Positions 6,968 to 31,253 of a stretch of DNA of 64,000 nt are shown piece by piece (within the stretch, counting starts at the first letter, position 1; every line of letters begins with the position of its first letter). The position numbers and the translations under genes were made by a program. The notes beneath the pieces were generated by a model. That model did not search any database. It worked only from the letters and a program-made list of their open reading frames with translations, and was not told the DNA's origin. The stretch is from NCBI RefSeq assembly GCF_000814845.2, contig NZ_CP010431.2, positions 2,604,001-2,668,000 of the forward strand. Reading direction: 5' to 3'. This DNA is from Pandoraea sputorum (lineage in GTDB: Bacteria > Pseudomonadota > Gammaproteobacteria > Burkholderiales > Burkholderiaceae).

Positions 6968-9178
6968 TCAGAACGGCTTCGACATCGCCAGATAGAACGT
7001 GCGTCGCGGCCCGAACTGCGGTGCGCCAACGCCGATGCCGGTGCCGTCGCGCAATTCGTAGACACGGTCGAAGACGTTCAGGACCGACAGCTTTGCATCG
7101 AAGCGGCCGACCCCCGGCAAGTTGAACTTCTCTCCAACGCCGAGGTTGACCTGAAGGTACGCCGGAAGGTGCTCGCTGTTGACGAACCCGCTGCGCAGCC
7201 CCGAGCCGAACAGCGCATCGGCCGATAGCAGCGTTCTGCCCCACTGATAAGACACACCGGCCGAAGCGCTCACCTGCTGGTCGTGATCCAGATGCACCCA
7301 GTGATTGGCGATGTAGGCCAGTTCGTCGGCACCGAAGTTGAACTGTCCGGTCTCGATGCCCTGTCCCATTGCGCGCGAGAGGGCGACGTTAAGGTACGCG
7401 CCGACGTTGCCCTGACGGTAGTTGACGGTGCCTTCCACGCCGTAAATGCGGCCGTTCTCGTAGTTGAACGTCGAATAGATCAGGGCATTGCCGAACTGCC
7501 CTTCGTCTTGCAGATGGTTCACGCGTCGATAGTAGGCGTCCAGCCCGACAGTAATCGCCGACGTCAATTGATGCGAGACACCCAGATCGAAGTAATCGGA
7601 GCGTTCGGCGCGCACGGCGGTGTTCGCGTCGGAGGGTAGGGCGTTGGTCGTATTGAGGAATTTCGCGACCGAGGTGGTATCGATCTTCTCGGTGGCTGGC
7701 GGCGTGAAGTAGCGCGAATACCCGGCGTGCAGACGCGTGCGGCTCGTCAGGTCGTACGTCAGCCCCAGACGTGGCGACAGTTGGCCCTCGTTCGTCACGG
7801 TATTCACGTGATCGTAGCGGGCGCCGTAGTTGAGCGTCAGACGATCGGTCGCCTTCCACTCGTCTTGCAGATACAGGCCGTAGGTGGTACCCCGGTCGTT
7901 TGCGTTGTCCACGATGGTCAGCGGCGTGCCGCTCGTCTGCTGACCGTTGTCGTCGGCGGGGAAGACGCTCGACGTGTTATCGACGCTGAAATGCTCCTGC
8001 TGCACGAACAGTCCGAAGCGCAGCGTGTGGCGGTCGGTGAGCTTGTAGCTGCTGTCGGCCTGCACGCCATACGCTTCATTGCGGCGCGTGATATTCGAAG
8101 CCACGCCGTTGTAGACGAGATCGCCGATCGGGTCCGGTGTGTAATCGACGCGGCTGGTGCGATGGAACAGGGAGATCTGAGTGTCGAGCTTTGGCGAGAC
8201 GTGGCTTTGCCATGACAGTACCTGGAAGTCGGTCAGTTCGCGTTGGTGCGCGTTGAGGCTCGACGAATCGGGCGTTGCTCCGTTGTCCAGCGTGAACTGT
8301 GGCGCAACGCCCGGCAGGTTCGGAATCTGGAAGCGGTTGTTCGCGGTGCCGAACATGAACGACACGCGATTATCCGGGTTCAGCAGGTACGACATCATGC
8401 CGAACGCGTTCGTCTGATTCGTATGGTCGTGAATCGCGTTGCGGTCGCCCGTCGGATTCTCGATTCCCATGTCGTTGGCCGAAACCCGCGCGCTGAAGTA
8501 GTAGCTGAGCGCCCCTTTAGTGCCGTACAACTGGGTGCTCACCTCGCGGTCGGCATGGCTGCCGAACACCACGCCGACTTCGCCGCCGAAGGCCTTCGGG
8601 GGTTCGCCGGTGTCGGCGGTGCCGTCGGCGAGGCCGGGCGAGCCTTTGGTGTGAATGTCGACGATACCCGCCGTGCGATAGCCGAACTGCGCCGGCAGGG
8701 CGCCGGTGATCAGATTGATTTGCGACGCGATGCGCGCATCGATAGCCTGACCGAATCCGCTGATCGATTCCGGAATGATCACACCGTCGATGCGGTATTG
8801 CAGGTTCGCGTGATCGCCGCGCACGTGCAGCTGGCCGTATGAGTCCTGCACAACGCCCGGCGCTTGCAGGAGCACCTGATTGAGCGGTGTGTTAGCGCCG
8901 AGTGGCAGTGCCTCGATATCCGTGTGGTCGAAGTTGTAGACCGAGCTGCCGGTATCGGGCGAGAGCGCGTTACGTGCGGCGTCGAGCCGCCTGGCGGAGA
9001 CGGTCGTGCCGGAGAGCGCGACATTGGCGTCGCCCGGACTAGCGGTCGATTGGGCGTGCGCGTTGATCGCGAAGGCCGACGCCGCTGCCGCCGCGAGGGC
9101 ATGACGGGCGAAGCGGACGAGATGTGGGGCGCGCGAAAAATGCGTGGGACGAACGAAAGGAATCCATCGGGCAGACAT
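6968..9178 (-). CDS. TonB-dependent outer-membrane receptor
   Basis: The product is 736 aa. The ATG at 9178 has GAGG a few bases upstream and gives a Sec signal ending near FAINAHAQ. A plug domain follows (NTPLNQVLLQAPGVVQ, then LHVRGDHANLQYRIDGV), then a long beta-barrel of alternating strands, ending in TFYLAMSKPF with the terminal Phe needed for barrel assembly. The family imports metal chelates or cofactors with TonB energy. The ligand is unknown. It lies downstream of a small DUF2946-like protein and a palindrome (9753-9781) that looks like a Fur-family operator, suggesting metal control. Confidence 0.9.
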   Translation of the reverse strand: MSARWIPFVRPTHFSRAPHLVRFARHALAAAAASAFAINAHAQSTASPGDANVALSGTTVSARRLDAARNALSPDTGSSVYNFDHTDIEALPLGANTPLNQVLLQAPGVVQDSYGQLHVRGDHANLQYRIDGVIIPESISGFGQAIDARIASQINLITGALPAQFGYRTAGIVDIHTKGSPGLADGTADTGEPPKAFGGEVGVVFGSHADREVSTQLYGTKGALSYYFSARVSANDMGIENPTGDRNAIHDHTNQTNAFGMMSYLLNPDNRVSFMFGTANNRFQIPNLPGVAPQFTLDNGATPDSSSLNAHQRELTDFQVLSWQSHVSPKLDTQISLFHRTSRVDYTPDPIGDLVYNGVASNITRRNEAYGVQADSSYKLTDRHTLRFGLFVQQEHFSVDNTSSVFPADDNGQQTSGTPLTIVDNANDRGTTYGLYLQDEWKATDRLTLNYGARYDHVNTVTNEGQLSPRLGLTYDLTSRTRLHAGYSRYFTPPATEKIDTTSVAKFLNTTNALPSDANTAVRAERSDYFDLGVSHQLTSAITVGLDAYYRRVNHLQDEGQFGNALIYSTFNYENGRIYGVEGTVNYRQGNVGAYLNVALSRAMGQGIETGQFNFGADELAYIANHWVHLDHDQQVSASAGVSYQWGRTLLSADALFGSGLRSGFVNSEHLPAYLQVNLGVGEKFNLPGVGRFDAKLSVLNVFDRVYELRDGTGIGVGAPQFGPRRTFYLAMSKPF

Positions 9179-9275
9179 GCCGGACCTCAGTGTGCTTGAC
9201 GTGTGGACGCCGCGCAGCCGGTGGCAGACGCGCCAGCGCTGGCGCGTCGCGACCTGCGACGGCGAATGTTCTGAT

Positions 9276-9674
9276 TCAGGCGAACGACACTGAGGGGTGA
9301 GGAGGGTCGCGATTACGCGTCGGCCCCCGCAAGACGGAGCGCACGTGCACCGGCGCAACCGGTGGGTAGTGCCACTCGCGCAGCGGCGGGAGCGAAGCGA
9401 AGACGGGCAGTGCGGGGAGCGCAACGTCAACCGCGATGAATGCAAGGCATTGCTCGCAGACGGCGTCTGCGTCGTCCGAACGCTGACCGGTACGACCATT
9501 ACCACCGCTGCGACCGACATCGCCATGTTGACGTTGCGCGTCCGCAGGTTCCACCGCTGCGACCGACGTAGCCGCCAGCGCGGACGCGGTGTGAAACACC
9601 ACGTGCCGTGCAAGGGCCATCTGCGAGACGAGCACGCAGACGATCAGCCAGAAAGGAAGCCAGCGGCGATGCAT
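9276..9674 (-). CDS. Small membrane/secreted protein, DUF2946-like
   Basis: The product is 132 aa from ATG 9674. It begins MHRRWLPFWLIVCVLVSQ, one transmembrane or signal segment, followed by an Ala-rich region, CEQCLAFIAV, and a C-terminal RGPTRNRDPPHP tail. This layout (N-terminal helix, CxxC-like pair, Arg/Pro-rich tail) resembles DUF2946 proteins that often sit next to TonB-dependent metal receptors. It is on the same strand, 97 bases upstream of the TonB receptor, and likely cotranscribed. Function unknown; the family assignment is from memory of similar loci. Confidence 0.65.
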   Translation of the reverse strand: MHRRWLPFWLIVCVLVSQMALARHVVFHTASALAATSVAAVEPADAQRQHGDVGRSGGNGRTGQRSDDADAVCEQCLAFIAVDVALPALPVFASLPPLREWHYPPVAPVHVRSVLRGPTRNRDPPHPSVSFA

Positions 9675-9752
9675 GAGCCGACGAGAAGCGGAAAAAGAGG
9701 AACGTCGAGAATCGGACGACAAACCGGACGACAAATCGCGACACAATCAAAT

Positions 9753-9781
9753 GCAACTCAATTGCAATGCAACTGAGTTGC
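9753..9781. promoter_or_regulatory. Nested inverted repeats, probable Fur-family (possibly Zur) operator
   Basis: GCAACTCA at 9753-9760 pairs with TGAGTTGC at 9774-9781. Within it lie a perfect TTGCAATGCAA (9762-9772) and GCAACTGAGTTGC (9769-9781). Several overlapping GCAA/TTGC half-sites suggest cooperative dimers. It is about 80 bases upstream of the DUF2946-like gene and TonB receptor. That a Fur-family repressor binds here is inference. Confidence 0.5.
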
Positions 9782-9946
9782 GAATTCTGTCACATTAGCG
9801 GGGGCTTTGCCAAGTCGGAAAGCTGGGCGGAGGCGAACGGGGAAGATCGGGAAAGCGCGGAAGAGGGAAGGCCGCGCGAGGCGGGGCGACGCGCCACCGA
9901 GGGCAGCCACCCGGTGGTGGCGTCCGTTCAAGTGGCGCGCAAGACT

Positions 9947-10933
9947 TCAGGCAATCGGCTGACGCAGGGTGGCGTCGGCGACACGAATTTGTCGCGGGAT
10001 CAGCTTGAGTTGCAGGAACGTGTCGGCAATCCGTTGTTGCGCGGCCAGCACGGATGGTGACACTGGCTTATAGACATGGGCGTAATGACGCAGCCCCTTC
10101 TCGATAATTTTGGCGTCGAGCCCCTGAACGGGGGCCAGTTGCGCGGCGGCTGCGGCATAGTCGCCACGAATTTGCTGCCCCGTCTGGCCGAGGGCGTCGA
10201 GCGTTGCTTTGATGACGTCGGCGCGTTTTTCCGCGAAGGCCCGTTGACTCAGGAAGAACTGGTGGTGGTCAGCCGCGCCTTCGGCATTGGCGAGCAGACG
10301 CACCGGACTCTGGTCGAGCACGGCAGTAAGGAACGGGTCCCAGATGGCCCAGGCGTCGACCGAGCCGCGCTCAAGTGCTGCGCGGGCGTCGGCGGGTGCA
10401 AGAAACACAGGGCTGACGTCGCCGTAATCGAGCCCGTGCTTGCGCAGCAACGCAACGAGGAACCAGTGGACATCCGACCCCTTGTTGAACGCCACGCGCT
10501 TGCCGCGAAGATCGGCCACCGTCTTGACGGGCGAATTGTTGGGCACGACGACGCCCTCGGCGAGGGGAGTGGGCACCTCGTAAGCGCTGTAGACGAAGTC
10601 GGCCCCGGCCGCTTGCGCAAAGACGGGCGGTGCTTCGCCGACGTATCCGAAGTCGATTGCGCCGACATTCAGCGCTTCGAGCAATTGCGGGCCAGCCGCA
10701 AACTCGGCCCACGTGACTTCCACGCCCAACGGCTTGAGCCGCGCCTCCAGCGAGCCATTCGCTTTGGCAAGCACGAGGGTGCTCGCTGCCTTCTGATAGC
10801 CGATGCGGAACTTGCCCGGCTCGTAGGCGGCGCGCGCCGGGAACGACGGCAGCGCTGCCGCTGCCGCTCCTGCGCTGAGGACTGTAAGGAACTGACGGCG
10901 TGAAATAGCTGAGATGGCGTTATGCGGTTTCAT
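9947..10933 (-). CDS. Aliphatic-sulfonate-type ABC transporter substrate-binding protein (SsuA-like)
   Basis: The product is 328 aa. The N-terminus has SRRQFLTVLSAGAAAAALP, a twin-arginine-like signal ending near PARA. The mature protein begins KFRIGYQKAASTLVLAKANG and has VTWAEFAAGPQLLEALNVG, GYVGEAPPVFAQAAG and DAWAIWDPFLTAV, all typical of periplasmic SsuA/TauA binding proteins for sulfonates or related oxyanions. No ATPase or permease gene is adjacent, so it is an orphan that may feed a transporter elsewhere, for instance with the LLM monooxygenase at the left edge. Ligand not certain. Confidence 0.87.
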   Translation of the reverse strand: MKPHNAISAISRRQFLTVLSAGAAAAALPSFPARAAYEPGKFRIGYQKAASTLVLAKANGSLEARLKPLGVEVTWAEFAAGPQLLEALNVGAIDFGYVGEAPPVFAQAAGADFVYSAYEVPTPLAEGVVVPNNSPVKTVADLRGKRVAFNKGSDVHWFLVALLRKHGLDYGDVSPVFLAPADARAALERGSVDAWAIWDPFLTAVLDQSPVRLLANAEGAADHHQFFLSQRAFAEKRADVIKATLDALGQTGQQIRGDYAAAAAQLAPVQGLDAKIIEKGLRHYAHVYKPVSPSVLAAQQRIADTFLQLKLIPRQIRVADATLRQPIA

Positions 10934-11035
10934 GAGCGTAGCCCGTGCAATGGCGTTGTAATGAATGTCGGTCGATGCACAGGAATTATCCGGACCGGGT
11001 CCACGCGGGCAACGAAGCGATTCTGCTTTAGATAT

Positions 11036-12577
11036 TCACGGCCGCGGTGCAATGTAAGCGACGCAAAGCGGCATTGCCGAGCCGGGTTTGTTGCCGCCGT
11101 GGTACGAGAACGGGAGCGTCTCGCGGGCGTCGATGGTCAGCGACGGCCAGAGGGCGAGCGTGTTCGCGAAGCTGGCGCGTCGACACGACCGGCCGGGGTG
11201 GCCGAGCAAGATCGCCCCTCGGGCGCGGACCTCCACTTCGTCGAGGTCATTTGTGTAGATGTTGGGACGCTTCTTCTCCGACCAGCGGGTGAGCAGGCGC
11301 GGCTCGCCCGGCGCATAGAACGTCAGCCACGTGGCGAGATGGTCGTTGCCGACGTAAGCCAGTGGTGCGTGATAGCGTGCCTGCCAGCGCTGTTCAAGGG
11401 CGATGCTCGCGGCCTTGATTCCGGCGAACTTCTCTCCGGTGTTACGCAGGTTCAGGCCCAGCACCGTCGCATAGCCGATCCACACCGTCAGCCCCACGAC
11501 GGGCAACCAGCGTGAAATTCGCGGGGCGCGCTTTGCCGTGATCGGTACCACGCACGCGACGAGTAGCGCGGGAAGCGGCACGGCGAACGGTTGCAGCCAT
11601 TCGGAGATGCGTCCGCCTTCGTGCAGGGTGAAATACACGAGGATGGGCAGCAGTGGCGTAAGTACTGTGACCGTAACGACCCAGCTCGGCGCGGCCGGAC
11701 GCCTGAAGCGAAGCCCCGCCAGATGCATGACGAATGCGAGCGTCGCCACAGGATAGAACGCCGTGAGTGCGCCGCGCAGACCGCGCCAATTCAGCCGTTG
11801 ATGGATCTGGTCGTCGACCCAGCGCACCGCTGCGAAATCGTGCTGTAAAAGCCAAAGGATGTTAGGCGCAATCAGGCCGAAGAAGACGAGCAGCCCGAGC
11901 AGAAGGGCCGGGTGACGGTAATGGCGGCGCGTGTCAGGTGTCCTCAGCGTCATGACAAACATCCCACCCAGCAGTGCGAACGTCGAATACTTGGTCATGG
12001 CGGCCAGACCGGCGATGACGCCGAACGCGAACCAGAACCTTGGCGAATCGAACATCGCGCGCACGAAAAGCCAGAGCATCCACGGCCAGAGCATGACTAG
12101 AAGATAGTTGTCGTTGTACGGGAGGATGTCGATGTTGATCGCCCCCGTCAGGTGCAGACTCAGCATGGCAAGCCAGGCGAGACGCTCGTCCCCCGATAAC
12201 CGGTTGGCCAGATGCCAGACCCCCAGCATACCCACGGCAACCACGGCGAAGTGCGACGCGTACCAATAGAACGCAAGCGCTTCGCCGTTAAGCCCTAACG
12301 CTAACGCTGGCCACATCGAGAACCCGACCAGCCAAGGGTTCTTCGGTGTTCCCCATTCTGCATTGCGCGCCCAGTTCAGGGCCTCGACGGCGTCGAAAGG
12401 TACGGTGGGATCGAGGGCTGCGCTCGTGAGCGTCCAGACGATGGCGTACACCGTCACATAGAGCGATGGCGAAAACTGAACGGCGACGGCCGCGCGGCTG
12501 AAGAGTGTTCGCAACGTGATCGTGCGACGCACCGGCGCATCGGTCGGCGAAGTGGAGGGGGCGACGTGATTTTGCAT
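11036..12577 (-). CDS. GT39/ArnT-like membrane glycosyltransferase
   Basis: The product is 513 aa with about 10-12 hydrophobic segments. After the first TM segment comes the acidic loop DPTVPFDAVEALNWA (D56, D62, E65), matching the catalytic Asp loop of PMT/ArnT-type enzymes. YNDNYLLVMLWPWMLWLF and DARETLPFSYHGG near the end are typical of bacterial family-39 proteins. The family transfers a sugar from a polyprenyl-phosphate carrier to lipid or protein on the outer face of the inner membrane. No lipid-A or polysaccharide genes flank it, so the acceptor is unknown. Confidence 0.82.
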   Translation of the reverse strand: MQNHVAPSTSPTDAPVRRTITLRTLFSRAAVAVQFSPSLYVTVYAIVWTLTSAALDPTVPFDAVEALNWARNAEWGTPKNPWLVGFSMWPALALGLNGEALAFYWYASHFAVVAVGMLGVWHLANRLSGDERLAWLAMLSLHLTGAINIDILPYNDNYLLVMLWPWMLWLFVRAMFDSPRFWFAFGVIAGLAAMTKYSTFALLGGMFVMTLRTPDTRRHYRHPALLLGLLVFFGLIAPNILWLLQHDFAAVRWVDDQIHQRLNWRGLRGALTAFYPVATLAFVMHLAGLRFRRPAAPSWVVTVTVLTPLLPILVYFTLHEGGRISEWLQPFAVPLPALLVACVVPITAKRAPRISRWLPVVGLTVWIGYATVLGLNLRNTGEKFAGIKAASIALEQRWQARYHAPLAYVGNDHLATWLTFYAPGEPRLLTRWSEKKRPNIYTNDLDEVEVRARGAILLGHPGRSCRRASFANTLALWPSLTIDARETLPFSYHGGNKPGSAMPLCVAYIAPRP

Positions 12578-15905: not shown

Positions 15906-16769
15906 GTGAGCGCGACACTGGAAATCGATTTGCTGCGCTCGTTCACGGCCATTGCACAAGCCGGTTCGCTCAGTCGCGCCGCGCAGCGCATCGCCCGAAC
16001 GCAGTCGGCGCTGAGTCAGCAGATGAAACGCCTGGAGGAGATCGTCGAGCAGCCGTTGTTTCAGCGCACAGGGCGCGGCGTGGTGCTGACCGGCTCCGGC
16101 GAGCGTCTGCTCGGTCACGCGCAACGCATTCTTCGCGCACACGACGAGGCGATGGCCGACATGTCGGGGCGCGGGCTGAGCGGGACGATCCGGTTCGGCT
16201 GTCCGGATGACTATGCCGCTGCGTTCCTACCCCATCTGCTGCGCGAGTTCGCGGTGGTGCATCCGCATGCGCAAGTCGAGGTGATTTGCGAGCCGACACC
16301 GAGATTGCTGGAACAGTTATCGCGTCACGCGCTCGATCTTGCCCTTATTTCGTTGCCCGACGGCGTGGACACGCCCAATGTGATCCGGCGCGAAGCATTG
16401 GTCTGGATCGGGAGTCCGGGGCTCGACGGGGTGCTCTCGAACCCGGACGAACCCTTGCCGCTGGCGCTCTCCGATTCCGACACGCTGGACCACATTGCGG
16501 CATGCGATGCGCTCTCGAAGGCCGGACGGGCGTACCGGATTGCCTACGCGAGTAGCAATCTGGCAGGACTTACGGCGCTCGCACGCTCCGGACAGGCGTT
16601 CGCGGTGATGACGCAAACGGCAGTGCCACCGGACTTACGCATTGTTACAGCTGATACCTTGCCGACGTTGCCGTCCGTAGGGATTACGGTAAAGTTCGAT
16701 CGCGCGCGTCCCAGTCACCTGAGCGTGGCGTTCGCCGATCAGATTAGGCAGACGCTGGCAGTGATGTAA
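15906..16769 (+). CDS. dgdR: LysR-family regulator of dgdA
   Basis: The product is 287 aa from GTG 15906; an in-frame ATG at 15873 would add 11 residues and no ribosome site decides between them. The HTH is in LLRSFTAIAQAGSLSRAAQR and SALSQQMKRLEEIVEQPLFQ, followed by an effector domain from GTIRFGCPDDYAA. The divergent position next to dgdA matches the known dgdR repressor gene in B. cepacia, which responds to dialkylglycines. The name rests on context plus family rather than on a recalled sequence. Confidence 0.85.
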   Translation: MSATLEIDLLRSFTAIAQAGSLSRAAQRIARTQSALSQQMKRLEEIVEQPLFQRTGRGVVLTGSGERLLGHAQRILRAHDEAMADMSGRGLSGTIRFGCPDDYAAAFLPHLLREFAVVHPHAQVEVICEPTPRLLEQLSRHALDLALISLPDGVDTPNVIRREALVWIGSPGLDGVLSNPDEPLPLALSDSDTLDHIAACDALSKAGRAYRIAYASSNLAGLTALARSGQAFAVMTQTAVPPDLRIVTADTLPTLPSVGITVKFDRARPSHLSVAFADQIRQTLAVM

Positions 16770-16983
16770 GGCTGATGTGCATCGACAGAGCGTCGTTGCA
16801 CGTTCCCGTGGAGGCGAATTTCAAGCACAATTGCGCGTTGCGCAGACGAACGGGCCAAGTCCCGGGCAGGCGCAACAGTCAGTCAAAAGAATCCGGGTTC
16901 TGTGCATTGGGGGCATCGATGGCCAGAGATCCGGGGTAATGCAGTCTTCGCAAGTTTTTGCGATTTTTTGTATCGAGGTCGAT

Positions 16984-17112
16984 ATGTTGGCGCGTTTCGT
17001 GGCGTTTTCTCTGGTAATCGGTTCGCTGTTTGCACTGGCGGGTTGCAACACGGTCGACGGCGTCGGTCAGGACATTTCGGGCGCGGCGCGCACCGTCAAG
17101 CGCGCGCTGTAA
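16984..17112 (+). CDS. Entericidin-like small lipoprotein
   Basis: The product is 42 aa. GAGG lies 5 bases before the ATG. A hydrophobic signal ends in a lipobox LAGC with lipidated Cys, then NTVDGVGQDISGAARTVKRAL, the standard entericidin A/B tail. These are tiny membrane-anchored lipoproteins, some linked to stationary-phase or envelope stress. Nothing here shows an antidote/toxin pair: only one copy is present. Confidence 0.85.
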   Translation: MLARFVAFSLVIGSLFALAGCNTVDGVGQDISGAARTVKRAL

Positions 17113-17320
17113 GTCATTCACGCCGCGCGAATCCGTTCATGCCTCGTTTTGGTGCCAATTCGCCGAAATGAGGCCGTGCTTGACGCGCTATCTCAAGTTT
17201 TCCGCCTTCTCGCCGTTGGAGCCGCTAACGCTGTCATGAAGGTACGGGTATCGTGCCGGGTGGCAGACGGTGGCGGCCGCTCTCGGTGGCCACAAAATGG
17301 AAAGAAAGGCGGAAGCGCAA

Positions 17321-18859
17321 ATGTTGAAAAATTGGACGATTCGTTGGCGGTTGCGGATGGCCGTGGCTGGTCTGGCAGCCCTTGTGCTGATCATCGGTGG
17401 GCTGGCGCTCATTGGATTGCGCGACACCGTGGGGAGCTTGCGCGAGGTCTACGACAAGGAACTGGCGAGCACCCGTTTACTGGGCGAATCGGAAATTCAT
17501 ATCGGCCGCGCGCGCGCTGTCGTGCTGCGTGCACCGCAAGCGCCGTCTGAAGAGATCAAGGCGGCTGACGTCAAGAAGGGCGCCGAGTACTGGGGTGAGT
17601 CGGAGAAGGCATGGCAGGCCTACCTGGCGTTGCCGTCGGACGCCGAAGAACAACGTCTTGCGAAAGACGTGACCGGTACCCGCCAGGCGCTCAAGGACGC
17701 TTTCACGTTGATCCAGAACAGCATTGCTGCCGGACAGACCGACGTCTACTACGAGCAGGCGGCGGTGCTGGGCAAGCGTTACACGTCGTACGTCAACGCT
17801 AACGAAGCGCTCAAGAAGCTTTACGACGAGCGGGCAAAGTCCAGCTTCGATTCGGCGGTGTCGACCTACGATCGCTTGTTTGTCGTGACCCTCGGCGCGA
17901 TTGCGTTTGCGATTATCGCGGCCTTCCTGACGGCGCGCTCGCTCAATCGTGCGATCACGCGACCGCTTGACGATGTCCTCGAACACTTCCAGGAAATCGC
18001 TGACGGGAATCTGCAACGCGCCGTGCATGCAACGTCGACCGACGAGATGGGCCGCTTACTGGGCGCACTCGCCAATATGAAGACGCAGCTCAACGATACA
18101 GTCTCCCGCGTGCGCAAGAGCGGCGAAGCGATTGCGGCCAGCGCGCGTGAGATTGCTGCGGGCAATCTGGATCTGTCGGCCCGCACTGAGCAGCAAGCGG
18201 CCTCGCTGGAGGAGACGGCGGCGAGCATGGAGCAACTGACCAGCACAGTGCGTCAGAACATGGAGCATGCGCGTCAGGCGAACCAACTGGCGCGACAGGC
18301 GAGCGACCAGACGGGGGCGGGCGACACCGCAATGACCGAGGTTACGGAAACCATGCGCGCCATCGATGCGGGGTCGGCACGGATTCGCGACATCATTGCG
18401 CTGATCGACGGCATCGCATTCCAGACCAACATCCTCGCCCTGAATGCAGCCGTCGAAGCAGCGCGTGCGGGGGAGCAGGGGCGTGGGTTTGCGGTCGTCG
18501 CCGGTGAAGTGCGTACGCTGGCACAGCGCTCGGCAAGTGCGGCGCGCGATATCAAGACGCTCATCGAGACGTCGGCCGAGCGCTCGGCGGCGGGCAGCCG
18601 CATCGTGGGTGAGGCAGGCGCGGCGATGAGCAGCATTGCGAACAGCGTGCAACGCGTGACAGACATCATGGCGGAGATTTCGGCCGCGTCGGAAGAGCAG
18701 ACGGCAGGCATCGATCAGGTGGCACGAGCCGTGACGCAAATGGACGAGGTCACGCAGCAGAACGCGGCACTGGTCGAGCAGGCGTCGGCGGCGGCCCAAT
18801 CGCTGGCCGAACAGGCCGAATCGCTGAAGTCCGCCGTCGCGGTGTTCCGTCTGGCGTAA
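17321..18859 (+). CDS. Methyl-accepting chemotaxis protein (Tar/Tsr type, four-helix-bundle sensor)
   Basis: The product is 512 aa. The ATG at 17321 has GGAAG 5 bases upstream; the GTG at 17270 is less likely. TM1 is near [19 protein letters not shown], then a periplasmic helical domain, TM2 near [18 protein letters not shown], and a HAMP domain. A long cytoplasmic coiled coil has the conserved hairpin tip [20 protein letters not shown] followed by [12 protein letters not shown]. There is no C-terminal NWETF-type CheR/CheB tether. It senses a periplasmic ligand and signals to CheA; ligand unknown. No che genes are nearby. Confidence 0.94.
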
Positions 18860-18865
18860 GCCGAA

Positions 18866-19483
18866 TCAGATCGACGAACGCCCCCACCATTCGCGCACGA
18901 AGTCGCCGCGGTCCGGGCGGGGCGTGACTTCCGGGTTCTCAGGCGGCGTACCGACGAAGAGGAAACCGAGCACTCGTTCGTTCGGTTCAAAGTCGAGAAT
19001 GCTATGGATGTCGGGGTCGTAGGCGTCGACGCCGGTGGCCCAGAAACCGCCGTAACCCAGCATATGGATGGCGTTCAGCAGATTCATGCTGGCTGCGCCC
19101 ACGCTGAGGAGTTGTTCGATTTCCGGCACTTTCGTCGCCGTCGAAATAGACGCCGCAATGACGATGATCATGGGTGCCGCAAAGGCTTTGCGACGGCGCT
19201 GCTCGTGCGCCTCGGCAGGCGCTTCCGGATCGCGGCTGGCGGCGGCTTCGACGAGCGCTTGTCCCAGATCGTGACGGGCGTCATCGCGCACGACCACGAA
19301 ACGCCACGGACGCAGACGTCCGTGATCGGGGGCACGTAGCGCAGCATCGAAAATCAGATTCAGTTCGGTATCGCTGGGCGCTGGCGCTGCGAGCGGCCAT
19401 TGGGACTGTCGCGAGAGCAGTGCTTCGAGAGCCAATTGCCGCGAAGCCACATCCGGCGGCGAGAATTCAGGGGTCGTACCCAT
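18866..19483 (-). CDS. Nitroreductase-family FMN protein (YdjA-like)
   Basis: The product is 205 aa from ATG 19483 (GGAGA 9 bases upstream); an ATG at 19516 would add 11 residues. LIFDAALRAPDHGRLRPWRF is the nitroreductase FMN-binding start, and NLLNAIHMLGYGGFWATG and NERVLGFLFVGTP are the conserved later blocks. It is short like the YdjA subgroup. The family reduces nitroaromatics, quinones or flavins with NAD(P)H. A Fur-like box lies 53 bases upstream of the chosen start (19537-19557), suggesting iron control. Confidence 0.88.
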   Translation of the reverse strand: MGTTPEFSPPDVASRQLALEALLSRQSQWPLAAPAPSDTELNLIFDAALRAPDHGRLRPWRFVVVRDDARHDLGQALVEAAASRDPEAPAEAHEQRRRKAFAAPMIIVIAASISTATKVPEIEQLLSVGAASMNLLNAIHMLGYGGFWATGVDAYDPDIHSILDFEPNERVLGFLFVGTPPENPEVTPRPDRGDFVREWWGRSSI

Positions 19484-25401: not shown

Positions 25402-25649
25402 CCTGCTGTCTCCGTCCATTTGGAATTGGTTTGTTGACGGGACTATAGGCGCGTAGCCAGCGTCGAAGGAAATACCGATTTTGGATGCGGGTATAGGGTA
25501 AAACTATGGCTTGAGCTTCTCGTTGCGCGGGAATGGCGCAAAGATGGCTTTCTATGCAACGAAAACCTGAGTTTCACGATGCATCGTATAGCAGTACGCT
25601 ATGGCTTTTCGTTACTGCCAACCGACCCGTCTCGGAGGCCGATGCCGTT

Positions 25650-26621
25650 ATGGACGTGAGACAACTCAGGAACTTCGTGGCTATCGTCGATAGCGGCAGC
25701 TTGTCGAAGGCGGCGGAGCGGTTACATATCGCGCAGCCATCGCTGAGCGCGCAATTGCGTGGGCTTGAGGACGAGCTGCAAACGCAACTTCTGGTACGCA
25801 GTGCGCAGGGCGTGACGCCGACCGAAGCAGGCAAGGCGTTGTATCGCCATGCGCGCGTGGTGTTGCGTCAGATGGAGCAGATACGTCAGGAAGTGCGAGA
25901 GGGCGGCGGCAGCGAGGCGGGGCCAGTGGCCGTGGGATTCCCGACGACCATTGCGTCGATCCTTGCTGTGCCGTTATTTGCGCGCGTGAGGGAGCAGTAT
26001 CCGGGGATTCGATTGCAGATTTTCGAGAGCATGAGCGGGTACATCGGCGAGTTGCTCGCCAACGGACGGCTCGACCTCGCGATGCTTTTTCGCGACTCGG
26101 AAACGCGGGGCATCTCGGTGATGCCGTTGTTCGACGAGGAACTGTATGTGCTGGGCGGGCACCGGGTGTGTCCGGCGATCTATGAGGATGCTGAGCACAA
26201 CGCTGACGGGACTTGCCCACTGGAGAAGCTGGACAACGTGCCGATCGTCGCGCCGAGCGCGTCGAACGGCTTGCGCCTGCTGATCGAGCGGAGTTTTGCG
26301 CAGGCGAATACGGAGTTGAACATCGTCGCGGATATCGACTCGCTGCCGACGCTCATCGACATTGCCCGCTCGGGCGACGCGTGCTCGATCCTGCCCGTGT
26401 CGGCATTGGCGTCGCGCGACCCGGCCTTACGTCCGCCCTCGCGTCGGATCGTCGCACCGCACCTGCAACGCCCGGCGAGTGTGTGCTGGTCCAACTCACT
26501 CCCGGTAGGCTCGGCGACGGTCGCGGTACGTCAGTGCATCGCCGACCTCATCCGGGAATTGCAGGCGGATGGACATTGGACGGGAATTACGTTGCGGCGC
26601 GGGAGTTACTGGCCAAATTAG
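25650..26621 (+). CDS. LysR-family transcriptional regulator (Nac-like)
   Basis: The product is 323 aa. The start ATG 25650 gives MDVRQLRNFVAIVDSGSLSK; the upstream in-frame extension has no LTTR character. The HTH region is followed by an effector domain with GPVAVGFPTTIASILAVPLF and RLDLAMLFRDSETRG, the pattern of Nac/Cbl-like LTTRs. It is divergent from the 2HCT transporter operon and is its likely regulator, with the hydroxy acid or a CoA product as inducer (inference). Confidence 0.9.
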   Translation: MDVRQLRNFVAIVDSGSLSKAAERLHIAQPSLSAQLRGLEDELQTQLLVRSAQGVTPTEAGKALYRHARVVLRQMEQIRQEVREGGGSEAGPVAVGFPTTIASILAVPLFARVREQYPGIRLQIFESMSGYIGELLANGRLDLAMLFRDSETRGISVMPLFDEELYVLGGHRVCPAIYEDAEHNADGTCPLEKLDNVPIVAPSASNGLRLLIERSFAQANTELNIVADIDSLPTLIDIARSGDACSILPVSALASRDPALRPPSRRIVAPHLQRPASVCWSNSLPVGSATVAVRQCIADLIRELQADGHWTGITLRRGSYWPN

Positions 26622-26690
26622 CTTTTCATGACGAGTCCCCGCCGCTGGCGGAGCGGTTGCGCTGTCAACGGACGGATGAAGCATCGCCGT

Positions 26691-27698
26691 CTACCATGCA
26701 CGCACTTCGTTGTCCGCTTGAATCACTTTCGCAAACTGTTCGTGAGACACATTTCCGCCGGAAATTACGGCGACTACGCTTTTGTCGCGGAATGATCGTA
26801 TCTCGGAGAGGACGGCGGCGAACGCGATGGCTCCTCCGGGTTCGGTCACTAGTTTGAAATGACGGAAGAGAACGCGCATCGCAGCCTCGACGCATGCGTC
26901 ATCAACCAGCAATACGTCACGAACGGATTGCCTCATGAGATCAAAGGTGAGGGCGCCTGGACGCCGATTTCTAAGTGCGTCACATATTGTGATGCCGACA
27001 TCAGGTGCTTCGCAGGGCTCGCCCGCTAACAGGGATCGTTTCGTATCGGCAGCCGCCGTCGGCTCCGCGCCCAATAGCGCGATCGGACTATGCCCGACGA
27101 CCAGCGCAGCGCCAGCGATCAGACTTCCTCCTCCGCACGGGTAAATCAGTGCATCGGGTGCGCTGCCGTTGTTTGTCTCAGAGAACTGAGAAAGTAACTC
27201 AAGCGTTACCGTGGCTTGCCCATCGATGACCGAGATGTCGTCATATGCAGGTATGACAACCGCGCCCAACCTGGCCGCGATCGACTTTCCCATCTTCACT
27301 ACATCTTGCGTATCGGATGCCGTATACACGTCGGCCCCACGACTAAGAATATTGTCGACCTTCACCTTAGGAATCCACGGAGGTACGACGACCGAGGCGG
27401 GGATCCCCAAGTCTTGTGCCACTTCTGCTAATGCTGCGCCGTGATTGCCTGAGGACCATGTGAGCAGGTGAGAAGCGGATTCGTCGGACGTCGAAGCCAG
27501 CGTTTTGTTCAGAGCCCCTCGAATTTTGAATGAACCGGTTCTCTGTAGATTCTCCGCCTTTATGAACAGATTGCATTGCAATCGATCGTTCAGGTAATCG
27601 GACTTCAATAGTGGAGTGGTCTGAATGAACGAGGATATTCTGGCGGAGGCAATCTCAAGTCGATCCGCGATGCCCCCTGAATTTGTGTTTACTATCAT
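26691..27698 (-). CDS. PLP-dependent threonine dehydratase / serine racemase-like enzyme
   Basis: The product is 335 aa. The ATG at 27698 has GGAG 8 bases upstream. The fold-type-II PLP motif is TGSFKIRGA with lysine K58, the phosphate loop is CGGGSLIAG, and SSGNHGAALA is the Asn-loop. Members deaminate Ser/Thr, racemise Ser, or (in gene clusters) make 2,3-diaminopropionate or related amino acids. It is last in a four-gene operon with a Ddl-like ligase, so supplying an unusual or D-amino acid to that ligase is the simplest role, though a housekeeping dehydratase is possible. Confidence 0.87.
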   Translation of the reverse strand: MIVNTNSGGIADRLEIASARISSFIQTTPLLKSDYLNDRLQCNLFIKAENLQRTGSFKIRGALNKTLASTSDESASHLLTWSSGNHGAALAEVAQDLGIPASVVVPPWIPKVKVDNILSRGADVYTASDTQDVVKMGKSIAARLGAVVIPAYDDISVIDGQATVTLELLSQFSETNNGSAPDALIYPCGGGSLIAGAALVVGHSPIALLGAEPTAAADTKRSLLAGEPCEAPDVGITICDALRNRRPGALTFDLMRQSVRDVLLVDDACVEAAMRVLFRHFKLVTEPGGAIAFAAVLSEIRSFRDKSVVAVISGGNVSHEQFAKVIQADNEVRAW

Positions 27699-27761
27699 TT
27701 TCTGTGCTCCGTGCGGTTGATTTTTCTTTTCTAATGTTGTGAGTTCTTGGATTAATCATTT

Positions 27762-28382
27762 TTATGTCTCTACAATAATTCCGCGTCCTGCATGAAACCG
27801 TTCCGCTGTTTCCATATTTATGGCGGCGTCTTGCTGAAATGGAGGAATTCCGGAAGGATTGTGTAGGTAAAGCGTTTTCCCCTCAATTCCGTGAACAAGA
27901 ATAAGATGACCGCCTTTTCGATTGTTGGGGTTGTTCGGGGATCTAATTTCGGTGCTTACGGATGAAATCACCATGAATGATTTTTTTATGAATTTCCCCA
28001 CATAATCAAATTTTTCATTTTCGTATATGAATGAATTTATTTTATAGGCATCCCGAATCCAATTGCAAAAAGGCTCGTATATTAGGCCTTTGACTGAGTT
28101 GTCGCTGATTTTTATGTATGCGCCCCATGATGTTGCTGCCTCGATTAGCTCTCGCCTGTTTGGATGTGGAATTTTCATGAAATCCAGAATTGATTCAAGG
28201 CACGCAATTCCACATGATCGATTGCTCCAGAAGCGATAGTCATCCGGCGTTGCGAATCCGGAATTAATCCAGTCGGGATCTTCGCAGGGATCCATGTTGA
28301 ATTTTATGATTTTCTCATTCAATTCTGGATTTGCCCACTGTGATCTGTAAGGCACGTTTTTATGGCGATAGTCGTTGGGCAT
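27762..28382 (-). CDS. C39/papain-like cysteine enzyme (BtrH-N-like fold possible)
   Basis: The product is 206 aa. AGGA lies 7 bases upstream of the ATG. The start VPYRSQWANPE, then RSCGIACLESIL (C57), GGHLILVHGIEG (H159) and LHNPSGIPP (N175) form a Cys-His-Asn triad in the order seen in Peptidase_C39-like proteins. There is no signal peptide, so it is cytosolic. Such folds are proteases or acyl-transferring enzymes; in a natural-product operon a peptide-bond-forming or -trimming role is plausible. The gene overlaps the end of the MFS gene by 23 bases. The DNA is much more A+T-rich than the surroundings. Confidence 0.78.
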   Translation of the reverse strand: MPNDYRHKNVPYRSQWANPELNEKIIKFNMDPCEDPDWINSGFATPDDYRFWSNRSCGIACLESILDFMKIPHPNRRELIEAATSWGAYIKISDNSVKGLIYEPFCNWIRDAYKINSFIYENEKFDYVGKFIKKSFMVISSVSTEIRSPNNPNNRKGGHLILVHGIEGKTLYLHNPSGIPPFQQDAAINMETAERFHAGRGIIVET

Positions 28383-29553
28383 GTCTTCTTCCTATGTCTC
28401 TAAGAAGTGGAAGCGATATGAGTTGCAGGATTGATAGCGCGGCCGCGAGCGCAAGTGCCACGCGGTAGCTTTCCCATGTGCAGATGAATGAACCTAGTAC
28501 AGCACCGAGAGGCATAAATCCCCAAGTGATCGATCGATATATCCCCGTGATTCGGCCGAGCACTCTTTCGGGAACAAAGCGCTGGCGATATGTAATAGAA
28601 ACGACATTCCATATCGCTAGGAAGAATCCGTAAATGAATAGCGCTAATGAGACAAACATTGGCGGCCCTCCGGTTAGTCCGACTAGAGGGAGGACTGTCA
28701 TGGCGAGGATGGACGCACAGATGAGCGGGAAATGGGGGAGGTTTGAGATGAGCTTTGTCGACAGAATCGTTCCAGTTAGGGACCCAAACGCGATCGATGA
28801 CATCATCAGGCCATAGCCGAATGTGGTGAGTCCCAGTCCGCTAGCACTGTCAAAGACATAAAGAGCAAAAGCTGAGCTCCATACGCCATAAGAAGTCATC
28901 ATTATTGATGCGACAAGAAGAGTTCCAAAAAGAGTTCGATCCTTAAGAGGGGTGAGTATCTGTTGTGGTTTGGTTCTTATTGGGTTTTTATGAATTGATT
29001 GGGGATTTTTTGGGTGGCCATGAATTAATATGATTCCTATTTGAATTACAATCAATGATTCTATCAGAGTTTTCGGGCCGCCAATTAATGCGGCGCCAGC
29101 GAGAATCGGAGCAATCAACTGTGAGAATGCTGCCTGCAACCCTAGAAATAATGAATTTATTTTTTTGAGATTTTGTTTTTGTGATATTTTCGGAATTGAT
29201 GTCTGGATTGCCAGCTCTGCCGAGATGTCGCCGATGGTTATGATTGTGGAGAGAACTATAAATTCAGAAAAATTTAATGATTCAAGGAGTATCAATACAA
29301 TAATAATCGAAAGTGATGTCAGCCTTATTAAGGAGCCTGATAAAATTATTTTTTTGAATGAGAGATGATCTATCGCAAACCCTACGAGGACCGGTGAAAA
29401 CAGCCAAGGAAGCTTCGATGCAGCAATCGACATACCTATGGCGGATGGGTCGCTGTTTAGGGAGATTGCAAGTACGGGAATCGAAGATCGAAAAATACCT
29501 TCTCCCAAGAAATTCAGTGTGATCATGGACCACATTGGCAGATTTCTTGACAT
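28360..29553 (-). CDS. MFS transporter in the A+T-rich operon
   Basis: The product is 397 aa with about 11-12 hydrophobic segments (MWSMITLNFLGEGIFRSSIP, then IIVLILLESLNFSEFIVLST and TLFGTLLVASIMMTSYG). It resembles exporters of small peptides or antibiotics. Its ATG shares one base with the TAA stop of the Ddl-like gene (TAATG), so translation is coupled. Two 60-base stretches inside it (29161-29220 and 29281-29340) each have 21 G+C of 60, against roughly 60 percent or more in flanking genes, which points to recent acquisition. Confidence 0.87.
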   Translation of the reverse strand: MSRNLPMWSMITLNFLGEGIFRSSIPVLAISLNSDPSAIGMSIAASKLPWLFSPVLVGFAIDHLSFKKIILSGSLIRLTSLSIIIVLILLESLNFSEFIVLSTIITIGDISAELAIQTSIPKISQKQNLKKINSLFLGLQAAFSQLIAPILAGAALIGGPKTLIESLIVIQIGIILIHGHPKNPQSIHKNPIRTKPQQILTPLKDRTLFGTLLVASIMMTSYGVWSSAFALYVFDSASGLGLTTFGYGLMMSSIAFGSLTGTILSTKLISNLPHFPLICASILAMTVLPLVGLTGGPPMFVSLALFIYGFFLAIWNVVSITYRQRFVPERVLGRITGIYRSITWGFMPLGAVLGSFICTWESYRVALALAAALSILQLISLPLLRDIGRRHAQRLSP

Positions 29554-30485
29554 TACGGCCGATATTTTCTGGAGGTTTCGATCGTTTCGATCAATCTAGA
29601 TATCAGGTCTTCATAGTCCCAGTTCAGGGCGTATCCCATTTGAGCCAGGTTCCCATGTCTCGATAGCCCTGGAAGTGTGTTCACTTCCAGAAACCAGGGG
29701 GCTGTGTCGTTGAGGATGAAATCAACACGTGCAAATCCTCTGCAACCCAGCGATGAGTAGATGCTGAGTGCCATTTCCTTGAGTGAGAATTCCTCGGATT
29801 TTGAGATTTCCGCCGGACAGAGATAGGCGCGACGTGAATTGCCGCACTTAACGTCGAAGCTATAGAACTGTTCGTCGTGCCGTGTTTCGAGTAGGGGAAG
29901 CGCAACGGGAATGCCTGCAATTTCAATGATCCCGACGCTTATGTCTTTTCCCGGTACGAACTGTGCGGCGACAAATAGCGGCAGTTCGTCGTTAGCCGCC
30001 GAGGAAGCCCAGTCGTAGAAGTCGTTGGCACTGGATAAGATCCGGGCGCCTTGACTGCATCCATTGGCCGCAGGTTTAACGAATACCTGCGACCCCAACG
30101 TTCTGAAAAGTTCACGGGGCTCAGGTAATCGTCCGCGCCTGAGATCGATCAGTCTCGATCGGGGAGTGCGAAGGCCGGAGCTTTCAGCAATCGCGTTGGC
30201 AAACGGCTTGAAGTATGCAGCGGCACTTGCTGCAACGCCTGAACCCGAATAGGGGATACGCAACAGATCAAGGGCACCTTGGAGTTTTCCGTCCTCGCCA
30301 TACCAGCCGTGCGTAGTGAGAAAGGCGCATTCGATTTGCTCAAGTTCACGGAAGTCGAGTTCCGCGGCATCGAAAAGTGTCGTGCTGATACCAAGTGATA
30401 TGCACGCTTCGCGGACGTGCTTTCCGGAAAGAAGCGCCCCGGGACGCTCAGGGCCGTAGCCTCCGGTGATGATGCCCAGTTGCAT
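29553..30485 (-). CDS. ATP-grasp ligase, D-Ala-D-Ala ligase-like
   Basis: The product is 310 aa. GGAG lies 5 bases before the ATG. Ddl landmarks are present in order: GGYGPERPG (E13 for the substrate amine), TTHGWYGEDGKLQGALDLL, IPYSGSGVAASA, the ATP-grasp lysine in VFVKPAANGCSQGA, FARVDFIL and EVNTLPGL. The region after EVNTLPG reads SRHGN where housekeeping Ddl has a Ser-His-Ser-Leu run, so the subsite for the second amino acid looks altered. It likely joins two amino acids with ATP. It is first in an operon with an exporter, a cysteine enzyme and a PLP enzyme, not in a dcw cluster, so a specialised ligase is favoured over cell-wall Ddl. Confidence 0.85.
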   Translation of the reverse strand: MQLGIITGGYGPERPGALLSGKHVREACISLGISTTLFDAAELDFRELEQIECAFLTTHGWYGEDGKLQGALDLLRIPYSGSGVAASAAAYFKPFANAIAESSGLRTPRSRLIDLRRGRLPEPRELFRTLGSQVFVKPAANGCSQGARILSSANDFYDWASSAANDELPLFVAAQFVPGKDISVGIIEIAGIPVALPLLETRHDEQFYSFDVKCGNSRRAYLCPAEISKSEEFSLKEMALSIYSSLGCRGFARVDFILNDTAPWFLEVNTLPGLSRHGNLAQMGYALNWDYEDLISRLIETIETSRKYRP

Positions 30486-30674
30486 GGCACTCCCCCCATC
30501 CTTTGCGAAAATCGCAGACCAAAGGTGACGGGGGGTTGAGCGGTATTAGAGCAGAAAAGGCTCTGTTACTCATGATTCGGCGGATGGGAATTTTCTGAGA
30601 TTTTTTCGCAGATGGAGACGTGGCGGGTCGCGTCCAAGCGATATAAAGACGTCACCATTTTCCCACCCTCCAGC

Positions 30675-31106
30675 TTACTGACGCATCCCGATCGCCAGAC
30701 GGTTGAACGCGCTCATCAATGCGATGGCGAACGTCAGGTCGGCGATTTCGGCGTCGGTGAAGTGTTCGCGCAGCGGGTTGAAGTCTTCGTCCGGGGCGTT
30801 GGTGCGATCGATGGCGCCGACAGAGTCGGCCCAGGCGAGGGCGGCACGCTCACGGTCGCTGAACTGCGAGCTCACCCGCCAGCCGCCGACGCTGTCGATT
30901 TTGGCATCGGCCATGCCACCGGCGCGCAGCGCCTTGCTGTGCATCTCCAGGCAGAAGGCACATCCATTGATCTGCGACACGCGCAGATAAACCAGCTCGA
31001 TCAGCGGTTTGCCGAGACTGCTTTTCTCCAACGCCTTTTTCGTGGCGACGAACCCTTGATAGGCATCGTTCGACAGCGTGAAATAGGACAGGCGAAGCGT
31101 ACTCAT
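30675..31106 (-). CDS. AhpD-like alkylhydroperoxidase / CMD family protein
   Basis: The product is 143 aa from ATG 31106, with GGAG 7 bases upstream. NGCAFCLEMHSKALR has the CxxCxxxH redox site (C49, C52, H56). The rest, VGAIDRTNAPDEDF and LTFAIALMSAFNRLAIGMR, is the standard AhpD-like helical core. It likely reduces peroxides with a thiol partner. It is divergent from a MocR regulator (31254), a common pairing, and therefore is a likely target of that regulator. Confidence 0.88.
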   Translation of the reverse strand: MSTLRLSYFTLSNDAYQGFVATKKALEKSSLGKPLIELVYLRVSQINGCAFCLEMHSKALRAGGMADAKIDSVGGWRVSSQFSDRERAALAWADSVGAIDRTNAPDEDFNPLREHFTDAEIADLTFAIALMSAFNRLAIGMRQ

Positions 31107-31253
31107 CGAAATTCTCCAGAAATTAACTGAGCAAGGGGCATGGGTTAAGGCTTGATGCGAACTGCAGGGGGATTGTCGCAACGTCACCAATTTACGAGAA
31201 TCATGGCCTAGTAGTCAGATGCAAGAATTGACGGAATCAATGGGACATCGCGA

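Follow-up and report, generated by a model that had tools for sequence, protein, structure and literature searches.

The window analyzed here is a 64,000-nt stretch of the genome of Pandoraea sputorum (a single contig of 5.74 Mb), and the element in question is a cassette of four minus-strand genes at positions 26691-30485. They encode a ligase similar to the D-alanine-D-alanine (D-Ala-D-Ala) ligase Ddl, a transporter of the major facilitator superfamily (MFS), a C39-like cysteine enzyme, and an enzyme dependent on pyridoxal phosphate (PLP). Comparison of sequences and gene neighborhoods indicates that the locus belongs to a rare, mobile type of gene set, in which a core of ligase and C39 is kept while its racemase partner and its partners for export or wall synthesis can be exchanged. 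The genes of the cassette are as follows (identifiers beginning with L, G and P denote compared loci, genomes and proteins).

26691..27698, minus strand: gene of the PLP enzyme, fold type II, serine racemase / hydroxyaspartate dehydratase type, 335 aa (Pfam PALP)
27762..28382, minus strand: gene of the C39-like papain-fold cysteine enzyme, 206 aa, without a hydrophobic N-terminus (Pfam Peptidase_C39_2)
28360..29553, minus strand: gene of the MFS transporter, probable exporter, 397 aa (Pfam MFS_1)
29553..30485, minus strand: gene of the Ddl-like ATP-grasp ligase of a non-canonical clade, 310 aa (Pfam PF07478/PF01820, Dala_Dala_lig)

Cassette architecture and base composition

An earlier note on this DNA, made from the letters alone, described four tightly packed genes of these families with stretches of low G+C content, and the description holds. 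The open reading frames (ORFs) lie exactly at the coordinates it gave, TAATG contains both the stop of the ligase gene and the start of the MFS gene, there is a 23-base overlap between the MFS and C39 genes, a gap of 63 bases separates the C39 and PLP genes, and the Pfam scores of all four proteins exceed the curated cut-offs. The G+C content of the segment 26691-30485 is 48.9%, versus 63.0% in the rest of the window, where the lowest value among 1048 windows of 3795 bases is 60.2%, with none below. Inside the cassette its minimum is 31.5% for stretches of 200 bases and 25% for stretches of 100 bases, the intergenic gap has 34.9%, and the G+C content of third codon positions (GC3) of the cassette genes is 0.43-0.58 versus 0.83 in the one neighboring gene measured.

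Insertion at the lysR site

The cassette lies in a larger inserted segment, bounded by the following features.

about 26597..30673: entire inserted segment, approximately 4.1 kb (DNA alignment with six empty sites)
30486..30673, minus strand: leader 5' of the ligase gene, within the insertion; promoter presumed from position only
25533..26621, plus strand: flanking gene of a LysR-type regulator (Pfam), whose final codons fall in inserted DNA
30675..31106, minus strand: flanking gene of the carboxymuconolactone-decarboxylase family (Pfam PF02627 on the longer ORF 30675-31190)

In the alignment with six empty sites, the match ends at about 26596-26602 and begins again at 30671-30675; the inserted segment is therefore larger than the stretch given in the earlier note. 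With the LysR protein as query, 19 of 32 Pandoraea genomes, the window's included, have a match at E 1e-100. The lysR and decarboxylase-family genes are adjacent in 11 other genomes (L038-L042, L044-L046, L048-L050), one of which, G025 (L042), has the empty lysR site and the cassette at another locus. In G012 the cassette sits between the same two genes as in the window, and the break in lysR falls in the same codon. For the remaining six lysR loci (L047, L051-L055) the decarboxylase-family gene is absent from the stretch examined.

The window and G012 share 80-98% identity in the five flanking proteins compared, versus 38-63% in the cassette proteins, so the cassette either evolves much faster than the DNA around it or has been replaced. 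Since there are empty sites, the G+C content is deviant and the full set occurs in only 4 of 32 Pandoraea genomes, the cassette was probably acquired, as the earlier note had proposed.

Several smaller features of the site were also observed. In the window the insertion substitutes the last lysR codons (26597-26621), leaving the regulator with a C-terminus unlike that of the empty-site genome. At L047 (G021) neither a decarboxylase-family nor a GntR gene lies between lysR and a serine acetyltransferase-like gene. A consensus promoter scan found promoter-like sites no more frequent than in shuffled sequence.

Distribution of the cassette in Pandoraea

The complete order ligase-MFS-C39-PLP is present in the window and at L002, L003 and L035; as it recurs in three further genomes, the order is not due to chance. 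The scattering of the four genes in related genomes, which the earlier note had named as evidence against a common pathway, is not observed, as they stay together in all four Pandoraea carriers. The C39 gene is found in six of the 32 genomes and the second, cassette-type ligase in four, all among the six C39 carriers (the chance of such co-occurrence is 4e-4 if the genomes were independent, which they are not). The cassette-type PLP enzyme (at least 58% identity) is confined to the same four genomes, other Pandoraea matches being at most 40% identical.

Three insertion sites are seen: the lysR site (the window and G012), a second one in L002, and a third one in L003. L003 shares with L002 the DNA of the cassette only, and its cassette is on a different contig from its lysR gene.

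The ligase

The ligase scores below the cut-offs of the NCBIfam Ddl models (206 of 243 bits for NF002378, 185 of 246 bits for TIGR01205), and no Van model passed, the best one being VanG (128 against 495 bits). In a tree of 30 rows, the window ligase and 24 others split off, with support 100/98, from the canonical Ddl of the same genome, three VanA/VanO ligases and one Agrobacterium Ddl. Thirteen of the 120 relatives listed (of 2806 proteins) entered this tree.

The residues of ATP and Mg catalysis (K97, K144, R255, D257, E270, N272) are all retained in the window ligase and in 26 of 26 clade rows compared. In contrast, the positions of DdlB S150, Y216, S281 and L282, which are substrate-site residues in that enzyme, are replaced in all 26 rows, by C/G, C/R/S/H/N, G and N, respectively. 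The window ligase has C, C and G at the first three of them, and the canonical Ddl of the same genome retains S, Y, S and L; at the last two positions, the window ligase has G-N versus S-R in the three VanA/VanO-type ligases. The alteration of the substrate site with the ATP/Mg residues kept points to a changed substrate pair. Judged from the tree and these residues, the window ligase, called simply Ddl-like in the earlier note, is a paralogue of the canonical Ddl and a member of a separate clade. The identity of a housekeeping Ddl was rejected, as all 32 Pandoraea genomes have a canonical copy at another locus, whose substrate-site residues are not retained in the window ligase.

The PLP enzyme and the transporter

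Among solved chains, the second and third best matches of the PLP enzyme are named serine racemase, and the PLP lysine, the SSGNH motif (with the re-face serine) and the E-x3-A-x-D pattern are present. SSGNH is mostly common to the non-cassette Pandoraea homologues too and hence is not decisive for a serine racemase. The best NCBIfam match is threo-3-hydroxyaspartate ammonia-lyase, at 232 bits against the equivalog cut-off of 452. A shared origin of the PLP enzymes of Pandoraea and of actinomycetes was considered and rejected, as the tree does not join them, a weak result given the long branches; 15 of the 16 fetched non-cassette homologues were used in it, L095 being dropped because of an internal stop.

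The MFS protein matched mainly models of efflux types (the best one, TIGR00900, with 89 bits versus the cut-off of 320), and is a probable exporter.

The C39-like enzyme and its solo copies

The C39 protein has a papain-like fold with the catalytic Cys and His; the predicted triad is Cys57-His159-Asn175, with Asn as the invariant third residue. It is a stand-alone protein with neither a hydrophobic segment nor a fused ATP-binding cassette (ABC) transporter. Its nearest named relatives are from Pandoraea (120 of 155 related proteins were listed). A phage origin was rejected, since a search of the phage collection with this protein gave no match at E 1e-5.

The C39 gene also occurs without the rest of the cassette. 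The flanks of L002 (P. pneumonica) are 85-87% identical to those of L004 and L036, and C39 is at the same site in all three (80% identity in DNA, 76-77% in protein), while the ligase and MFS stretch (7818-9985) and the PLP stretch (10645-11745) of L002 have no counterpart in L004/L036, small unmatched stretches being left at the edges of the alignment. The orphan C39 genes are at 10001-10633 of L004 and 7602-8231 of L036, in the site occupied by the full cassette in L002. On Streptomyces plasmids, the C39 gene is intact, but the ligase gene beside it is interrupted in L108 and reduced to a C-terminal fragment in L107, and the PLP gene is partial in L109 and left as short remnants in L106. Several further copies are stand-alone, among them L005, L007, L011, L014, L081 and L083-L085 (L083 was examined from a contig end). 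L080 (8004-9239) has two tandem C39-family genes, the second one only distantly related.

Linkage and gene neighborhoods across bacteria

Where the context of the ligase is visible, the C39 gene is at most 1.3 kb away in 16 of 16 cases, a small and non-independent set: four of four Pandoraea genomes, 11 of 11 PLSDB plasmids (with the ligase matched whole in eight and interrupted in three), and the single carrier of the ligase clade among 394 actinomycetes. Left out of this count were the Vibrio mimicus proteins (ligase P0024, C39 P0145) and the metagenome pairs P0025/P0138, P0028/P0147 and P0036/P0139, for which a linkage was deduced solely from contigs of equal length. Judged from the neighborhoods seen across bacteria, the pair of ligase and C39 appears to be what stays constant, with PLP and MFS genes as exchangeable additions.

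The C39 gene is rare outside Pandoraea: in genome draws, with the best 5-8 candidates per genome scored, it was found in the window's genome and two others among 399 genomes of the window's order, in the window's genome and one other among 369 genomes of its class, and in nine of the 394 actinomycetes, two of them seeds. With the same number of candidates scored, as also in the ligase search of the 394 actinomycetes, no member of the ligase clade was found among 299 Pseudomonadota besides the window itself; eight matches in other genomes have the canonical SL motif and were not counted. Neither were the PLSDB ligase matches in 26 of 37 records, with identity of at most 36.4%. The gene contexts on plasmids cover 19 regions out of 47-52 C39 records.

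The partners of the core vary. At L008-L010 (collected via C39), the order is glutamate racemase homologue, ligase, C39 and Bcr/CflA-like MFS, where the racemase homologues of L009 and L010 pass TIGR00067 and the transporters of all three are below the family cut-off. Streptomyces plasmids combine ligase-PLP-C39 with MurF and a MurC homologue; Nonomuraea has ligase-PLP-C39 with a DppA homologue, which also adjoins C39 at L058; and Rhodococcus (L113) has a Ddl-family protein, PLP enzyme, C39 and an M15 dipeptidase. In R. rhizogenes (L111) and Agrobacterium (L060, L115) C39 is paired with a canonical-type Ddl, followed in L111 by an EamA transporter. Thus, one slot is occupied by different enzyme families (the Pandoraea PLP enzyme, the actinomycete PLP enzyme and the glutamate racemase homologue), which suggests that this slot supplies an inverted or altered amino acid. 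An exporter partner recurs as well, as the MFS protein of Pandoraea, the Bcr/CflA-like one of L008-L010 and the EamA transporter of L111.

In actinomycetes, C39 is immediately 3' of vanH-vanA-vanX at L013 (10001-10612) and L064 (8001-8630), and beside a van locus at L012 (10001-10609); all three loci also hold MurG and/or MurF genes. Elsewhere, C39 is preceded by an annotated dipeptide ABC transporter and an M19 dipeptidase (Mesorhizobium, L112), by a gene of the FAD amino-acid-oxidase family (L006 from Paraburkholderia and L032 from the window's family), or by genes judged by eye from the sequence to encode PBP2 and RodA (L034).

Three side observations concern plasmids and fragments. The plasmids L060 and L115 were typed as conjugative. 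On the Streptomyces chartreusis plasmid of L056, a tgmABC cluster of ribosomally synthesized and post-translationally modified peptides (RiPPs) of the ATP-grasp type (16614-18997) adjoins the ligase-PLP-C39-MurF-MurC set. At L082, a short ORF (7725-8036) beside C39 and the ligase matches only the C-terminal part of MurF.

Proposed function and its alternatives

The function that we tentatively prefer, as quite possibly the correct one, is a compact production-and-immunity module, in which a D-dipeptide-type metabolite would be made and exported, with the producer protected by C39. The PLP enzyme would supply a D-amino acid or another altered residue of the serine, threonine or aspartate type, and the respecialized Ddl-type ligase would couple it, with ATP, to a second residue (most likely a D-amino acid) to form a dipeptide other than D-Ala-D-Ala. 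The MFS protein would export this dipeptide, and the cytosolic C39 enzyme would protect the producer by hydrolyzing it or a close relative. The substrates, the direction of export and the immunity role are parts of the model that we infer. The reading of the locus as a small pathway that makes and exports a dipeptide, already given in the earlier note, is in line with the four genes present, with the changed pocket of the ligase and with the racemase-type and exporter partners that recur elsewhere, while the product and the activities are still predicted ones. The linkage of C39 to the ligase clade, the C39 copies without the rest of the cassette, and the dipeptidase, dipeptide transporter, DppA and amino-acid-oxidase genes near C39 in other bacteria also count in favor of the module. 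If the ligase, MFS and PLP genes were lost around C39 in L004/L036, this is the pattern expected of an immunity gene.

The main rival, which we consider unlikely, is a van-like module of wall precursors. Here the racemase would give D-X, the ligase would make D-Ala-D-X for the stem peptide via MurF, C39 would be a cytosolic D,D-peptidase removing D-Ala-ended precursors, and the MFS protein would pump out the threatening compound. The coupling of ligase-PLP-C39 with MurF and the MurC homologue on actinomycete plasmids, the place of C39 after vanX or beside a van locus with Mur genes, and the M15 dipeptidase of Rhodococcus agree with it, and so do the van loci of Ktedonobacteria, in which, according to section 3.3 of the published description, vanX tends to be lost and genes of an M15B and a C39-family peptidase were gained as a pair (PMC9689679). 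On the other hand, the Pandoraea cassettes have no Mur gene, and the cassette ligase differs from the three VanA/VanO-type ligases at S281/L282. A C39 enzyme that cut native D-Ala-D-Ala precursors would be expected to harm the wall when alone, so its solo occurrence (L004/L036) speaks against their destruction; moreover, Gram-negative bacteria are generally known to be largely shielded from glycopeptides.

It is still less probable that C39 is a biosynthetic tailoring enzyme (a transpeptidase or maturase) that reshapes the ligase product before export and has no role in immunity, as it is found with no ligase at the cassette site of L002 in other Pandoraea (L004/L036), next to decayed ligase or PLP genes, and in many ligase-free loci. 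A catabolic or salvage cassette, with the PLP enzyme as an ammonia-lyase, C39 as a peptidase, the MFS protein as an importer and the ligase incidental, seems very improbable. The threo-3-hydroxyaspartate ammonia-lyase match of the PLP enzyme and the C39 homologues that adjoin an FAD oxidase or the dipeptide transporter with the M19 dipeptidase are in its favor, but that match is far under the equivalog cut-off, the constant partner is an ATP-grasp ligase with catalytic residues, and the MFS models are mainly of efflux types.

Several observations weigh against the production-and-immunity module itself. The sequence does not distinguish a racemase from a dehydratase for the PLP enzyme, and in the PLP tree the Pandoraea and actinomycete enzymes are on different branches, with weak deep support and long branches. 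The comparison with L004/L036 is consistent both with the loss of the ligase, MFS and PLP genes and with their later gain around C39, and C39 is intact in L004/L036 and L106-L109 partly by construction, because these loci were found via C39. The 16 linked cases include three plasmids with identical match values and two more likewise, and the context was visible for a minority of the listed ligase-clade proteins. The unselected, C39-anchored draws argue for a freer gene: among 10 carriers besides the window and the two seeds, the ligase is near one (L082), a PLP fragment and MurF are at L079, and eight have neither. In the Streptomyces clusters no exporter was seen and MurF/MurC are present, which fits cell-wall remodeling better, and where an M15 or VanX peptidase stands beside C39 (L013, L064, L113), an enzyme that hydrolyzes D-Ala-D-Ala is already at hand.

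A wider reading, about which we are rather doubtful, is that of a widespread class of mobile mini-clusters, in which the respecialized Ddl-family ligase and an interchangeable racemase would make a D,D-dipeptide antimetabolite against the D-Ala-D-Ala branch of wall synthesis. The C39-fold hydrolase would provide immunity, non-producers would keep immunity-only copies, and the same enzyme would have been co-opted into van clusters. If the production-and-immunity module is real, four genes would suffice for making a D-amino-acid peptide, a minimal route that could escape cluster searches tuned to large enzymes of the non-ribosomal peptide synthetase (NRPS), polyketide synthase (PKS) and RiPP types. 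It would also give a function to a C39 branch annotated merely as "C39 family peptidase" or "hypothetical protein", and would hint at a reason for the presence of C39 genes in van loci, where we found no role ascribed to them.

Comparison with known systems

The statement of the earlier note that no described cluster has exactly this set agrees with our literature searches on the whole set and on its components, in which, judging from the listings of the library used, no paper on a ligase-racemase-C39 module was found; in passages of PMC7143919, C39 appeared just as part of a DOI. Still, a C39 peptidase gene in van loci of Ktedonobacteria had been published (section 3.3 of PMC9689679).

The substrate-supplying enzyme, the D-Ala-D-X-type ligase and the cytosolic peptidase follow the same logic in the cassette as in vanHAX, which C39 relatives adjoin, and in VanC-type clusters, which consist of the VanC ligase, the VanXY peptidase and the VanT serine racemase. 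Unlike these systems, the cassette has no VanX/VanXY (M15) metallopeptidase and no VanRS, only four genes lying between lysR and the decarboxylase-family gene; its ligase is in another group, its PLP enzyme is soluble, and an MFS protein is added. In comparison with C39 and Peptidase_C39_2 peptidases such as PCAT1 and ComA, the cassette enzyme is a stand-alone protein of 206 aa, with Asn as the third residue and no transporter fusion. The PLP enzyme shares the lysine, SSGNH and E-x3-A-x-D with serine racemases and threo-3-hydroxyaspartate dehydratases, but differs in being at most 40% identical to the non-cassette homologues in the 32 Pandoraea genomes.

The D-cycloserine cluster dcs contains a Ddl homologue, a fold-II PLP enzyme and a transporter, which are likewise united in the cassette, while other dcs-type genes are absent from it and its ligase is divergent at the substrate site. 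In the case of bacilysin, the L-amino-acid ligase BacD acts with the exporter BacE; the cassette resembles this pair in having an ATP-grasp dipeptide ligase and an MFS exporter, and differs in that its ligase is of the Ddl family (PF07478) and has a racemase-type enzyme and C39 as partners.

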